Below the pieces are notes generated by a model, which made no database searches, was not told the origin of the DNA, and saw nothing but the letters and a program-made list of their open reading frames with translations. Made by a program: the position numbers and the translations under genes. Source: Chryseobacterium indoltheticum (GTDB lineage: Bacteria; Bacteroidota; Bacteroidia; Flavobacteriales; Weeksellaceae). From it: 64,000 bases of DNA. The stretch spans positions 3,720,001-3,784,000 of the forward strand of contig NZ_CP033929.1 in assembly GCF_003815915.1 (NCBI RefSeq). The letters are read 5' to 3'. Shown in pieces: positions 766 through 35,790 of the stretch; position 1 is the first letter of the stretch, and every line of letters starts with the position of its first letter.

Positions 766-1416
766 TTATTTTTTTTCTAAAGCCTTTACCTTAATCTGCA
801 GCGTTACTTCATTTTTAATTACCCCATTTGCAGCAGGAGATTGAAATTTCACTCCAAATTCTTCTCTCATAATATCTTTAGGTTCAGTTGCAATACTCAC
901 TTCTCCCCCGTTTACAGCAACATTCGCCTTAAACTGAACAGGTTTTGTAATACCTTTCACCGTTAAATTCCCGTCTAATACGGTATTATAATCACCTTCT
1001 GCGGAAGGGCTTACTTTTGTAATTTCATAAGATGCTGTCGGAAATTTTTCAACTTCAAAAAAGTCAGCACTTTTCAAATGACCATTAAGTTTTTTTAATT
1101 TTTCCGCATCATTTTTTAAATCTTCAGAACTTAGAGACGCCATATCAGCCACAAATTTTCCGCTTTCGAGCTTCCCGTCTTTTATCGTTACATCACCGCT
1201 TTCAAATTTGATGGTTCCGAAATGACTCGTATTTTCAGATTTAAAAACTTTATACCCTTTCCATTCTACATTACTGTTTAAAGTATCCAAAACAAATCGG
1301 CTTCCGTCTTTCGTTGTTGTAACCTCATTGGTATCACTTGTTACCGGTTTTTCTTTAGAACAAGAAACAACAGTTAATAAAGCCGGAATAGCGAGAGAAA
1401 ATAATATTCTTTTCAT
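766..1416 (-). CDS. YceI-family lipoprotein
   Basis: A 216-residue protein with a lipoprotein signal peptide (MKRILFSLAIPALLTVVSCS, lipobox cysteine at 19), then a YceI-like domain from about residue 40 to the end. Family hallmarks include NSNVEWKGYKVF near the start of the domain, DLKNDAEKLKKLNGHLKSADFF, the FPTASYEIT strand and the LTVKGITKPVQF strand. YceI proteins are lipocalin-like beta barrels that bind isoprenoid or other amphiphilic ligands. The ligand here is unknown. The protein is expected on a membrane face of the periplasm. It precedes the small membrane protein at 491-751 and is probably co-transcribed with it. Confidence 0.85.
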   Translation of the reverse strand: MKRILFSLAIPALLTVVSCSKEKPVTSDTNEVTTTKDGSRFVLDTLNSNVEWKGYKVFKSENTSHFGTIKFESGDVTIKDGKLESGKFVADMASLSSEDLKNDAEKLKKLNGHLKSADFFEVEKFPTASYEITKVSPSAEGDYNTVLDGNLTVKGITKPVQFKANVAVNGGEVSIATEPKDIMREEFGVKFQSPAANGVIKNEVTLQIKVKALEKK

Positions 1417-1477
1417 TTTGATATAATTTATGCATGGCTAAATTACTAAAAATATGCCAGTCTTCCTCAAAAACCCT

Positions 1478-8399: not shown

Positions 8400-9215
8400 A
8401 TGAAAAGAAACATTACTATTTTTTTTGCTTTACTGTGTACAAGCTTAGCTTTCGGACAAGGTAAATACGGAAAATTTCTCAATTCTAAAAAACTCGCTCT
8501 TTCTTATAAAAGTGTAAAACCAGTTGACAAAGATGATTACTATCAGCAATATTATTGGTTGGTAAAAGCTGAACAGCTTAAAACATTTCCTCACCTTGCA
8601 GATGTAAAACCTGTTGTACTCTACAATTTTGTAAAAAAAGTAAATCCTCAAAACCCAACAAAAAAATTGGATGACAGAGGAAAAGAACTTAGAAAAACAG
8701 CAGAATTATCTTTAGACCAATATTTCAAAAACAAAAACTTCCAGAACAATGAAGTTTTGCTTTACAATTTGGAAACGTATGTAGACCCTTCACAAGGTGA
8801 ATATTTCACAAAAGTAGACGCTGAAAAAATCAAGCAATTGGTTCCTAAAGAATTTTTTGGATTTGCTTCTCTAAATAAAAAGACACAAGAAGAGACCAAT
8901 TATTATCTTTGGGTTGACAAGAAAAATGATAAATTTAAAATCGTTGATATCATTCCTAACGAAAAAGATAATGCTAAATTTTATGCTTCTGTAAAGCAAT
9001 ATCTTCCGAAGTACAAGTTTGAAAGAAAATATATGCCTACTGTAAAAAAAGGGTCTAAAGCTGACAAAACAGATAAAGATTTCTTCTACATTATGCCTTT
9101 CGAGCAAAATAAAGATAACATCGAATACAAGACAGACGATTTTGAAACATTCATTCTAAGCCAGGTAAAAAGAGAAGGTGAAGCATGGATCGGAGTAGAA
9201 AAACCGAGAAAATAA
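8400..9215 (+). CDS. Secreted protein of unknown function
   Basis: A 271-residue protein with a signal peptide (MKRNITIFFALLCTSLAFGQ). The mature part is lysine- and aromatic-rich with no repeats or known catalytic motif. I do not recognise the family. It has no lipobox cysteine, so it is probably soluble in the periplasm or exported. It has its own terminator at 9243 and no obvious partner; asnB upstream is closed by its own terminator. Confidence 0.75.
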   Translation: MKRNITIFFALLCTSLAFGQGKYGKFLNSKKLALSYKSVKPVDKDDYYQQYYWLVKAEQLKTFPHLADVKPVVLYNFVKKVNPQNPTKKLDDRGKELRKTAELSLDQYFKNKNFQNNEVLLYNLETYVDPSQGEYFTKVDAEKIKQLVPKEFFGFASLNKKTQEETNYYLWVDKKNDKFKIVDIIPNEKDNAKFYASVKQYLPKYKFERKYMPTVKKGSKADKTDKDFFYIMPFEQNKDNIEYKTDDFETFILSQVKREGEAWIGVEKPRK

Positions 9216-9242
9216 TAAGATTTAATCTTAAACAAAATACAG

Positions 9243-9270
9243 CCCCGAAAGCAATGCTTTTGGGGTTTTT
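9243..9270 (+). terminator. Terminator
   Basis: CCCC..AAAGCA pairs with TGCTTT.GGGG, followed by a T run. It ends the gene at 8400-9215. Confidence 0.85.
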
Positions 9271-9394: not shown

Positions 9395-9402
9395 TATCTT
9401 TG
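9395..9402 (+). promoter_or_regulatory. -7 box of the tyrS leader
   Basis: TATCTTTG is a perfect TAnnTTTG box, seven bases before the leader peptide ATG at 9410. This places the transcription start at or next to that ATG. Confidence 0.7.
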
Positions 9403-9409
9403 CAAAACA

Positions 9410-9508
9410 ATGAAACAATTAAACAGCATTTTACGCTTACCGTTTTTCAGCAATTATTATTACCCGTTCTATCGTTCGGGCAGTATTTCTATACCTAAAA
9501 TTCAATAA
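9410..9508 (+). CDS. Tyrosine-rich leader peptide of tyrS
   Basis: A 32-codon frame with a -7 box directly upstream. The middle of the peptide reads SNYYYPFYRSG: Tyr codons at 9455-9463 (three in a row) and 9470-9472, plus Phe codons nearby (9443-9448 and 9467-9469). Four of 32 residues are Tyr. It ends with TAA at 9506-9508, 69 bases before tyrS. The second half overlaps one arm of an antiterminator. The layout matches classical amino acid leader peptides (TrpL, PheL, HisL). I infer that ribosome stalling at Tyr codons when Tyr-tRNA is short allows tyrS transcription. The peptide probably has no other role. Confidence 0.8.
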   Translation: MKQLNSILRLPFFSNYYYPFYRSGSISIPKIQ

Positions 9509-9558
9509 AATTTAAACTACAATATTGAAGAGCCCGAACAAATTGTTCGGGCTTTTTT
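9474..9558 (+). promoter_or_regulatory. Transcription attenuator of tyrS (antiterminator/terminator pair)
   Basis: GCCCGAAC at 9532-9539 can pair with GTTCGGGC at 9545-9552 to form a terminator hairpin (loop AAATT, then six T's at 9553-9558). It can also pair with an identical GTTCGGGC at 9474-9481 inside the leader peptide frame. The second pairing can extend by AGTATT (9482-9487) with AATATT (9521-9526). The two pairings exclude each other. The three tandem Tyr codons lie 11-19 bases before the antiterminator arm, so a ribosome stalled there would leave the arm free, while a moving ribosome would cover it. Confidence 0.8.
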
Positions 9559-9577
9559 ATGCTTAAAACGTAACAAA

Positions 9578-10777
9578 ATGATTAATATACTAAAAGAAAA
9601 CGTAGAAATTATTCTACCTGAAAACGGTTTGGAACAGAAATTAAAACAAGCCAAAGAAGAAAACAGAAAACTCGTCATCAAACTTGGTTTTGACCCCACT
9701 GCGCCGGATTTACATTTGGGACACGCCGTTGTTTTGAAAAAACTAAAACAGTTTCAGGATTTGGGACATCAAATTATCATCATCGTCGGAAGTTTTACGG
9801 CAAGAATAGGTGATCCAACCGGGAAAAACAAAGCCCGAAAACCTTTGAGCGCTGAAGAAGTACAGCATAATGCAGAAACCTATATCAACCAGCTTTCAAA
9901 AGTAATTGATGTAGAAAAAACGAAAATTGTTTTTAATTCTGACTGGCTGGATTCTTTGAATTTTTCAGAAGTTATTCAGTTGATGTCAAAAGTTACGGTG
10001 GCTCAACTGATGCATAGAAATGATTTCAACAAAAGATTTACAGAAAATTCCCCGATTGCAATGCATGAATTGGTGTACCCAATTTTACAGGGATTTGATT
10101 CGGTAAAAATAGAATGTGATATTGAAATGGGCGGAACCGACCAGCTTTTCAACTGCACAATGGGAAGGCAACTGCAGGAAACTCATCAAATGTCACCACA
10201 GATTTTGATGTGTATGCCTTTATTAAAAGGACTTGATGGAAAAGAAAAAATGAGTAAATCTTTAAATAATATCATCGGCTTAACAGACGAACCCAATGAA
10301 ATGTTTGGAAAAACAATGTCCATTCCTGATGCTTTAATTAATGAATTTATCGACTTGACAACTAACTTTTCTAATACTGAAAAACAGAATTTAAAATCTC
10401 GAATTACAGACGGTGAAAACCCAATGAACATCAAAAAAGTCATTGCTAAAAATATTATTTCTCAATACCATAATGAAGAATTTGCTGAGCTTGCAGAACA
10501 GTTTTTCATCAATCAGTTTCAGAATAAAAATTTTGAGGAGAAAGTATTTGAGCCAGTTTCTATTGAATCATTATTTCCAAACAAATCGAAAATAAGCTTG
10601 ATTGAACTTTGTCATCAGTTGAAAAACAACGAAAGTAAATCTTTTATCAGAAGATTAATTGAAAGCGGCGGAATTCAAATTAACAATATGAAAATCAATG
10701 ATCCAAATGCAGAAATTAAGCTTTTAAAAGAGACGAAAATAAAGATTGGGAAAAGAGATTTTTTTGAATTGATGTAA
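9578..10777 (+). CDS. tyrS: Tyrosine-tRNA ligase
   Basis: A 399-residue class I tyrosyl-tRNA synthetase of the second bacterial type (TyrZ-like). It activates tyrosine with ATP and charges tRNA-Tyr. The signature HLGH (residues 46-49, in place of HIGH) and KMSKS (about 223-227) are both present. GFDPTAPDLHLGH and GSFTARIGDPTG are typical of the type. The C terminus (about 330-399) is an S4-like RNA-binding domain with IRRLIESGGIQINN. Expression is probably controlled by the Tyr-rich leader and attenuator directly upstream. The start at 9578 follows the attenuator T run by 19 bases. Confidence 0.97.
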   Translation: MINILKENVEIILPENGLEQKLKQAKEENRKLVIKLGFDPTAPDLHLGHAVVLKKLKQFQDLGHQIIIIVGSFTARIGDPTGKNKARKPLSAEEVQHNAETYINQLSKVIDVEKTKIVFNSDWLDSLNFSEVIQLMSKVTVAQLMHRNDFNKRFTENSPIAMHELVYPILQGFDSVKIECDIEMGGTDQLFNCTMGRQLQETHQMSPQILMCMPLLKGLDGKEKMSKSLNNIIGLTDEPNEMFGKTMSIPDALINEFIDLTTNFSNTEKQNLKSRITDGENPMNIKKVIAKNIISQYHNEEFAELAEQFFINQFQNKNFEEKVFEPVSIESLFPNKSKISLIELCHQLKNNESKSFIRRLIESGGIQINNMKINDPNAEIKLLKETKIKIGKRDFFELM

Positions 10778-15631: not shown

Positions 15632-16270
15632 TTAAATAATAATATTCAATTCTGATGGTGGTGGTGGAAGGCTGATGTTTTCGCCTGTTCCTTGTGATTT
15701 TCCACCCATGGTGATGGATGAACTTACCCATTTAAAAAATGAAGATAAGGTTGCAGCATCGGTTGTATCTAGTTTTACTACATTATCGGTGAGTTCTTTC
15801 AGGAAGCTTTCATCAGCTTTTGGACCTGCAGCACATCCAACAATGACACCAAAATCCATATTTTTAATTACAGGAATCATCTGTCTGTATTTTTGAATAT
15901 CTGAAGGTTTACCATCGGTGAAAATAAAAAGAAGAGGCTTCCAGTCGCCTTTTACTTCAGTTGATCCTTTAATTAAATCTACCTGAAGTAATGCTGAAAC
16001 CAATTCCAAGGCTGCTCCTGTGTGAGTTGGACCGCTATCGGGACACGTGATTTCCATTGGGTGAAAACTCGCCAAATCAACCATCGGAATAATATTTTTT
16101 ACTTCACGATCGAAAGTAGTGACACTTAAATACAATGTATCCATCGCTTGCGGATCTGAGCGGAGCGCACTTATTAATCCGTTGAAACCATTGTTCAGCG
16201 CCTGAATGGGTTCGCCATTCATCGAGCCGGAAGTATCCAGCAGAAAATACGCTAATAATCTTCTGTTCAT
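15632..16270 (-). CDS. vWA-domain TerY-like protein, short form
   Basis: A 212-residue vWA protein. The start is set at MNRRLLAYFLLDTSGSMNGEP by comparison with TerY; nine further in-frame codons upstream are probably not translated. The MIDAS motif is DTSGS. GPTHTGAALELV and FIFTDGKPSD supply the other metal-site residues. It is a diverged paralogue of the neighbouring TerY but lacks the C-terminal zinc ribbons and ends with a proline-rich SLPPPPSELN tail. It probably forms part of the same cytoplasmic complex as TerD and TerY. Confidence 0.82.
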   Translation of the reverse strand: MNRRLLAYFLLDTSGSMNGEPIQALNNGFNGLISALRSDPQAMDTLYLSVTTFDREVKNIIPMVDLASFHPMEITCPDSGPTHTGAALELVSALLQVDLIKGSTEVKGDWKPLLFIFTDGKPSDIQKYRQMIPVIKNMDFGVIVGCAAGPKADESFLKELTDNVVKLDTTDAATLSSFFKWVSSSITMGGKSQGTGENISLPPPPSELNIII

Positions 16271-16353
16271 TTTGCTAAACTTTAAAAGTTTCATCAAAAC
16301 TAAATTCCTATTAAAAGAAAATTTAATCTTGATAAAACTTATTTATGATTCTA

Positions 16354-35419: not shown

Positions 35420-35790
35420 GAAGTTGGAAGTTTGAAGATGGGTGATGGAAGTTTAAATGATTGAGGATAAATTTTGAGATTGTTTTGCTTAAATAAACTT
35501 AGCACAAGCTAATTCCACTTTTCGCAATGATACATTTGAAATGACACGCGAAATTCCTTTGGAGGGGTGGCGAAAATTTCAAAGAAATTTTTGACGGGGT
35601 GGTTTTTAACACAACAATTTTTATTAGCCCCGATTGCAGCGACATCCTTTTGTGCAGCGCAGCGTAACAAAAGATACAGCGAAAAGCGGGAAAAAGCTTC
35701 TAAAAAAAATTAGCAATAAATAAAATGAATAATAAGTGATTCTGAGACTGCTTCTTCGCTTGGCTCATCACAATGACAAATAAATAAATT
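35420..35790. repeat. Repeat-rich gap before the FAH gene
   Basis: This 371-base stretch has no supported gene. It contains short GGAAGTT-type repeats (35420-35450), a block AGCCCCGATTGCAGCGACAT...AAGCGGGAAAAAGCT (about 35625-35698) that can partly fold on itself, with TTTTGT/ACAAAA arms, and a block at 35737-35781 reading TCTGAGACTGCTTCTTCGCT and onward to CACAATGAC. The last resembles the dispersed TCATTGCGA...GAAGCAATCTC-type repeat found in many genomes, in reverse orientation. Dispersed status is from memory, not from a search. Confidence 0.55.

Follow-up and report, generated by a model that had tools for sequence, protein, structure and literature searches.

Upstream of a gene for a second tyrosyl-tRNA synthetase (TyrRS) in Chryseobacterium indoltheticum lies a leader that we read, with a probability of roughly 85%, as a ribosome-mediated transcription attenuator that would sense the charging of tRNA-Tyr and control a backup synthetase. 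The analysis covers a stretch of 64,000 nucleotides of the C. indoltheticum genome (hereafter the window; coordinates refer to its forward strand unless stated) together with related loci in other genomes. The anatomy of the locus, its conservation, the pairing of its arms as seen by covariation, the presence of a second TyrRS, the depletion of tyrosine in that enzyme, and the linkage of leader and gene are all direct observations. The locus provides a clear, testable case of leader-peptide attenuation for a synthetase gene in the Bacteroidota and ties attenuation to an accessory TyrRS that seems suited to scarce tyrosyl-tRNA, while the conserved leader peptide opens the question of whether the nascent chain contributes to amino-acid attenuation.

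Ahead of the leader stands a box, TATCTTTG (9395–9402), that fits the Bacteroidota -7 consensus TAnnTTTG, and seven bases past it is the ATG (9410) of a 32-codon open reading frame (ORF; 9410–9508) encoding MKQLNSILRLPFFSNYYYPFYRSGSISIPKIQ, with the conserved core ILRLPFFSxYY. Three tandem Tyr codons at positions 16–18 (9455–9463), the putative control codons, end ten bases before arm 2, GTTCGGGC (9474–9481), which would form the 5' arm of an antiterminator. The same GTTCGGGC recurs as arm 4 (9545–9552), followed by a run of six T (9553–9558), and the two copies compete for one complement, arm 3, GCCCGAAC (9532–9539), common to the predicted antiterminator and to the intrinsic terminator that arm 3 forms with 9545–9558. 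On rereading the sequence, the box, the frame, the Tyr codons, the arms, and the T-run proved to be placed exactly to the base in the original prediction, which had also drawn attention to the two copies and their shared complement. A simple consensus terminator scan of the window did not list the arm 3:4 hairpin. The synthetase gene, encoding 399 residues of which three are Tyr, follows at 9578–10777, and the preceding gene (8400–9215) has a terminator-like hairpin of its own at 9241–9267.

The gene had originally been named tyrS, and this name is correct as far as the enzyme family is concerned: the product scores 352.8 bits against the tyrosyl-tRNA synthetase profile TIGR00234 (cut-off 113.8) and contains HLGH (HIGH-like) and KMSKS motifs. 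It is not, however, the sole TyrRS of the organism, in which a family search finds two such enzymes above the family cut-off; the other (G000:C1:1425596-1426882, 431 residues, KFGKS) is the housekeeping TyrS. The two enzymes are 28% identical over 288 residues, and their nearest solved structures are 6bqy, 1h3e, and 6byq for the window enzyme and 6n0w, 2ts1, and 1jii for the housekeeping one. By sequence, the window gene encodes an accessory TyrRS of another subclass, which we presume to be of the TyrZ type. A housekeeping-type TyrS is present in all of 20 genomes picked so as to contain some of each kind, and 8 of these genomes have the accessory type as well. As the gene encodes a second TyrRS, what the switch controls is most likely a backup enzyme.

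Leader and gene occur together wherever the accessory type was sampled. Starting from 178 loci with the gene, 136 of which have distinct upstream DNA, and setting aside 27 with divergent enzymes and one truncated upstream region (L031), we obtained 108 loci, and every one of these has the leader, arms 2, 3, and 4, and the T-run. The leader consensus over the 108 is MKxLNxILRLPFFSxYY with small variations, the named hosts include Chryseobacterium, Flavobacterium, Arenibacter, Gelidibacter, Sphingobacterium, Rufibacter, and Telluribacter, and the enzymes of the other 107 loci are 72–94% identical to that of the window. A search with the leader peptide in 148 genomes of the same genus returned 101 strong matches (E below 4e-4), 24 weak ones (E 0.04–0.83), and none in 23 genomes. 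The accessory gene adjoins the leader in all 30 strong-match loci fetched and is missing (at E 1e-60) from 43 of the 44 tested among 47 genus genomes lacking a strong leader match; the remaining one has a gene fragment at a contig end.

The gene is found in 25 of 148 genomes (4 of 33 genera) of a family sample, with the leader in 25 of 25, and in 15 of 296 genomes of an order sample, every one in Chryseobacterium. A scan of named genomes found 189 relatives, and the best 80 of the 189 are mostly Chryseobacterium, the other genera being Arenibacter, Oceanihabitans, Rufibacter, Faecalibacter, Vaginella, Profundicola, Flavobacterium, Sphingobacterium, Gelidibacter, Telluribacter, and Weeksella. 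In a phylum sample, 272 of 395 genomes match the enzyme, and among the matches listed the identity is at most 48% save in three of its own genus. The leader is absent from the 400 nt upstream of 27 of 27 same-type TyrRS at 43–48% identity (out of about 269 divergent ones), and none of the 20 housekeeping TyrS has its core in the upstream DNA read, which was up to 400 nt long, so that, as far as sampled, the leader appears confined to one clade of accessory TyrRS. Operon partners were sought among 54 neighbouring ORFs of 14 loci, and only two alike pairs emerged (two Chryseobacterium loci at 51%; L176 and L182 at 32%). The C. tagetis copy falls outside the group of other Chryseobacterium copies (AU test p 0.0005, 41 rows, a test devised after the first tree had been seen). 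Since the neighbours nearly all differ and the C. tagetis copy is placed in this way, leader and gene seem to travel as a unit, as these sequence comparisons suggest. Carriage on a plasmid or phage was not found, the 13 plasmid and 2 phage records that match all doing so at under 60% identity.

An exact TAnnTTTG lies upstream of 70 of the 108 leaders and ends 5–9 nt before the start codon in 67 of these; near matches are found in 25 and none in 13. A Shine–Dalgarno-like motif (GGAG, GAGG, or AGGA) is absent from the 18 nt upstream of the leader in all 108. The predicted transcription start coincides with the leader ATG or lies only a few bases from it, likely leaving little or no 5' UTR. Given that 5.5% of mRNAs in F. 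psychrophilum are described as leaderless (PMC9723704), a leaderless leader would be uncommon, not unknown. One leader (L137) starts with GTG instead of ATG, its core being otherwise intact.

The Tyr pair is nearly invariant. Codon 16 is TAT in all 108 leaders and codon 17 encodes Tyr in 107, so that a short ORF with at least two tandem cognate codons is present in 107 of 108, and the Tyr pair holds among relatives, a check that the original prediction had proposed. That most leaders (74 of 108) have no more than two such codons counts against the model. TAT is fixed at codon 16 (9455–9457) although it makes up 44% of the Tyr codons in the enzyme genes. From the selection acting on its codons we infer that the leader is translated.

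The region 9410–9565 has a folding energy of -32.8 kcal/mol, where 200 shuffles average -19.88 (sd 3.11; z -4.15). Taken by itself, 9472–9541 forms the antiterminator with an energy of -17.6 (z -4.96), and in neither case is any shuffle as good. In all 108 loci the stretch from arm 2 to arm 3 folds as the antiterminator, and the full leader folds as the terminator in 105 and as the antiterminator in 3. Six arm 2:arm 3 pairs are kept in all 108 leaders, but the arm search patterns already favoured complementarity and left just one match, U-A or C-G at the second position, that could have failed. At that position of arm 2 (GYTCGG), U faces A in arm 3 in 80 loci and C faces G in 28, with no mixed cases; the double change from U-A to C-G occurred only about twice on the gene tree, and a test of independent pairs had just one pair to draw on, not enough for significance.

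Helix statistics on 41 representatives of the 108 leaders support both structures, to different degrees. The 3:4 helix has 99.7% of its cells paired and, as in an intrinsic terminator, four or more T in a row follow it in all 108 loci; 5 of its 8 pairs have changed on both sides (reached by 2 of 500 shuffles), its covariation score is reached by none of 500, and it lies above the shuffles on all five measures. The 2:3 helix has 94.8% of its cells paired and 16 cells changed on both sides, and its covariation score is likewise reached by 0 of 500 shuffles. Its both-side changes fall in one of seven pairs, which 481 of 500 shuffles match, its pair-type count is reached by all 500, and its seventh pair is broken in 15 of 41, so that it exceeds the shuffles in cells paired, double-changed cells, and covariation score, and not on the other two measures. 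On those same three measures, the 2:3 and 3:4 helices each beat every slid control. RNAalifold recovers both helices in both subgroups, with the antiterminator at z -9.5 (73 sequences) and -7.5 (28) against column shuffles, 6 divergent loci belonging to neither subgroup. The reading frame of arm 2 within the ORF varies, with 6 changes on the gene tree, and two species (L037, L110) have leaders that shift frame past the Tyr pair and still keep arm 2 whole; because arm 2 falls in different frames, it is kept as RNA and not as peptide. The expectation that the competing arms would be conserved and would covary in relatives is thus borne out, in 108 of 108 loci and in the 41 representatives, respectively; one arm serves both antiterminator and terminator, and compensatory change in the antiterminator is confined to one pair.

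The 1:2 hairpin, which would hold arm 2 when tyrosine is plentiful, is the weak link of the attenuator model. It is predicted in the fold of 9410–9565 and in both RNAalifold groups, with different 1:2 arms; in the window, the putative arm 1 is CCCG (9463–9466), pairing with CGGG (9477–9480) within arm 2. The CCCG version shows no excess of covariation (119 of 500 shuffles reach its score), and the codons used tilt only mildly towards 1:2 pairing (mean -10.5 kcal/mol, compared with -8.9 after recoding), the energy falling in the lowest 10% of recodings in 15 of 101 leaders. In 90 of 108 loci the leader stop codon lies 18–35 nt past arm 2, so a ribosome paused at the stop would not cover the arm.

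These features suggest the following model, in which stalling, antitermination, induction, leaderless initiation, and the physiological role are what we infer from the anatomy. The leader would be transcribed from the -7 box just before the start codon and translated while it emerges. With ample Tyr-tRNA, the ribosome would pass the Tyr pair, arm 2 would be covered or tied up, and arm 3 would pair with arm 4, so that RNA polymerase would halt at the T-run. A shortage of Tyr-tRNA, owing to tyrosine starvation or to a housekeeping TyrS that is inhibited or insufficient, would stall the ribosome at codons 16–18 and leave arm 2 free, ten bases downstream; assuming the usual ribosome footprint, the front edge of the ribosome would then presumably lie near 9468–9474, just clear of arm 2. 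With arm 4 still to be synthesised, the free arm would capture arm 3, and transcription would enter a gene whose product needs little tyrosine to be made. The Tyr pair in 107 of 108 leaders, the competing arms in all 108, and their covariation favour this ribosome-mediated attenuation, as it had been proposed at the outset.

The main rival is control by the nascent peptide, alone or in combination with codon stalling, in which ILRLPFF in the exit tunnel would cause a pause at the Tyr pair as a response to a ligand (candidates are free tyrosine, a tRNA carrying D-tyrosine, or a drug that binds the ribosome), a pause that the RNA switch would then read; we hold this only tentatively and consider it rather unlikely. 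Residues kept before the Tyr pair are not something that charging-based attenuation requires, and here they are strongly kept: L8 and P11 in all 108 leaders, F13 in 107, and R9 in 106. The ratio pN/pS is 0.081 for codons 7–14, 0.040 for codons 12–14, and 0.014 for the Tyr pair, compared with 0.734 for codons 18–21 and 0.196 for the enzyme, as crude pairwise counts among related sequences with no tree (3000 of the 3570 pairs of 85 distinct leaders and 600 pairs for the enzyme), in which pS exceeds 1 for codons 12–14. Synonymous changes are many in the core, where Leu is CTT, TTA, or TTG and all four Pro codons occur, and together with the low pN/pS this indicates that the residues before the Tyr pair are kept as amino acids. 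At the protein level, then, leader residues 7–14 seem to be under tighter constraint than the enzyme, a hint that the nascent peptide has a role, and past the Tyr pair the peptide can shift frame, as in the two frame-shifted leaders. Part of the constraint on the leader codons may be RNA pairing, however, and the position of the Tyr pair among the best conserved codons, ahead of a gene whose product is a tyrosine enzyme, is explained by charging alone.

A more speculative extension, which we regard as doubtful, would make the leader and its Tyr-poor TyrRS a transferable emergency unit: nascent ILRLPFFSxYY would help set the stall, and the ribosome would report specifically on tyrosyl-tRNA that is defective, because it is uncharged or, to give one case, because the housekeeping enzyme has loaded it with D-tyrosine, and would call in the substitute. 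If true, this would be a hybrid of amino-acid attenuation and arrest-peptide sensing.

Two further explanations fare much worse. Under the first, the leader would bind a tRNA (as a T-box) or a tyrosine-responsive RNA-binding protein, the ORF being incidental, and it gains some plausibility from B. subtilis, where the second TyrRS gene, tyrZ, is described as being under a T-box and a MarR regulator (PMC9437257). The start of the ORF, its Tyr codons, and the frame up to them are conserved, none of which such a mechanism needs, and the 30 matches that an Rfam search listed with E no higher than 5 include no T-box, so we judge it highly improbable. The known Rfam leader families considered at this locus also remain below their gathering scores, the His, Leu, Thr, and Trp operon leaders reaching 31.4, 28.4, 20.3, and 15.4 bits against 49, 50, 55, and 41. 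Under the second, an ordinary terminator of the upstream transcript would stand beside a chance ORF, as might be argued from a finding made in sequence where T-runs and hairpins are common, and its likelihood is close to negligible given that the preceding gene has a terminator-like hairpin of its own and that the leader, Tyr codons, and three arms stand together in 108 of 108 loci with neighbours that almost all differ (14 loci).

The composition of the enzyme agrees with the attenuation model. The 108 accessory enzymes have 3–8 Tyr residues (mean 1.05%), as against 8–14 (2.71%) in 19 same-type enzymes without the leader (those of 27 controls that gave a usable ORF) and 13–17 (3.23%) in 20 housekeeping TyrS. 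Phe stands at 4.75, 3.59, and 5.69% and Trp at 0.26, 0.29, and 1.33% in the same three groups, and among Tyr, Phe, and Trp, only Tyr is counted as lower in the accessory than in the same-type enzymes. When 11 and 15 of these enzymes are aligned, the accessory ones have Phe, Val, Leu, or Ile at several columns where the same-type ones have Tyr. Within the window, this enzyme is the poorest in Tyr of 41 ORFs of at least 200 residues (0.75% against a mean of 4.17%). Such "cognate bias" is a known idea, a bias in the cognate amino acid having been described for biosynthetic enzymes (PMC4209129), and on the sequence comparison the accessory TyrRS looks adapted to being made when tyrosyl-tRNA is scarce. 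Two more Tyr-poor ORFs of the window (about 1.4%) lie at 15635–16297 and 769–1419, minus strand.

In the attenuators of the trp, his, leu, and thr operons, a ribosome stall chooses between antiterminator and terminator, and the proposed element is alike in this stall-set choice and unlike them in that their Rfam leader models stay below gathering score. A T-box, by comparison, binds tRNA directly and needs no translation. Synthetase genes with attenuators are on record, namely pheST of gamma-proteobacteria and trpS and leuS of some Streptomyces (PMC1262725), and these likewise join a leader peptide with cognate codons to a terminator-forming attenuator; the amino acid, the enzyme, and the phylum differ here, as do the conserved core outside the control codons and the probably small or missing 5' UTR. 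B. subtilis tyrZ resembles our case in being an accessory TyrRS gene beside a housekeeping one and under RNA leader control, with a trigger that PMC9437257 gives as unknown, but there the control is by T-box, whereas here it would be by translating Tyr codons. Closer to C. indoltheticum, leader-peptide attenuation has been suggested from a transcriptome map for amino-acid operons of F. psychrophilum, a related bacterium with the same proposed type of mechanism, and structured 5' UTRs are noted there for synthetases; tyrS has 0 occurrences in the main text of that paper, which has a supplementary list of 64 structured leaders (PMC9723704). Leader-like short ORFs have been suggested in Bacteroides (PMC7366714), and leader genes have been surveyed in Bacteroidetes, among others, by their distance to the gene (PMC4833913). 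The view that attenuation is little described in this phylum therefore has to be narrowed, signs of it in a flavobacterium (PMC9723704) and attenuation of synthetase genes (PMC1262725) both being in print. It follows that the kind of mechanism is known and that this tyrosine element is a new instance of it, with the conserved nascent peptide as a possible variant. By titles and abstract openings, the element was not recognisable in literature on tyrS or TyrRS attenuation, the tyrZ T box, leader peptides of Bacteroidetes and flavobacteria, or synthetase attenuators, subscription literature lying mostly outside this search, and the letters of the core peptide gave no match.

The idea that the leader is a general element placed before other genes was set aside. 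A profile of 15 leaders matched 8 of 395 class-level genomes (9 places, E up to 0.01), and the one true leader among these places is that of the window. The eight others have no TyrRS within the fetched stretch and no in-frame Met before the core in the segments shown, and one of them (L227) lacks the core motif. By eye, no leader is seen upstream of pheS in the C. indoltheticum genome. In one class-level genome (G1084), two copies of one stretch (L222 and L229, around 1515–1560) read HYILRLPFFSKYYVFF in frame, each before an ORF of 115 residues, with no in-frame ATG and no TyrRS in the 3 kb fetched; their DNA looks like the leader core by eye, through chance or old relation. Among 20 weak genus-level matches (E about 0.01–0.3), scanned by motif alone, two resemble the core (L099 and L104), and the former, at about 540–680 on the minus strand in a genome of the same genus without the accessory gene (G109), reads ELRLPFFRGYYSPF and may be chance or a decayed leader. 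Elsewhere in the window, a Flavo-1 RNA (RF01705) at 35622–35697 is the sole Rfam match above gathering score, at 63.6 bits.
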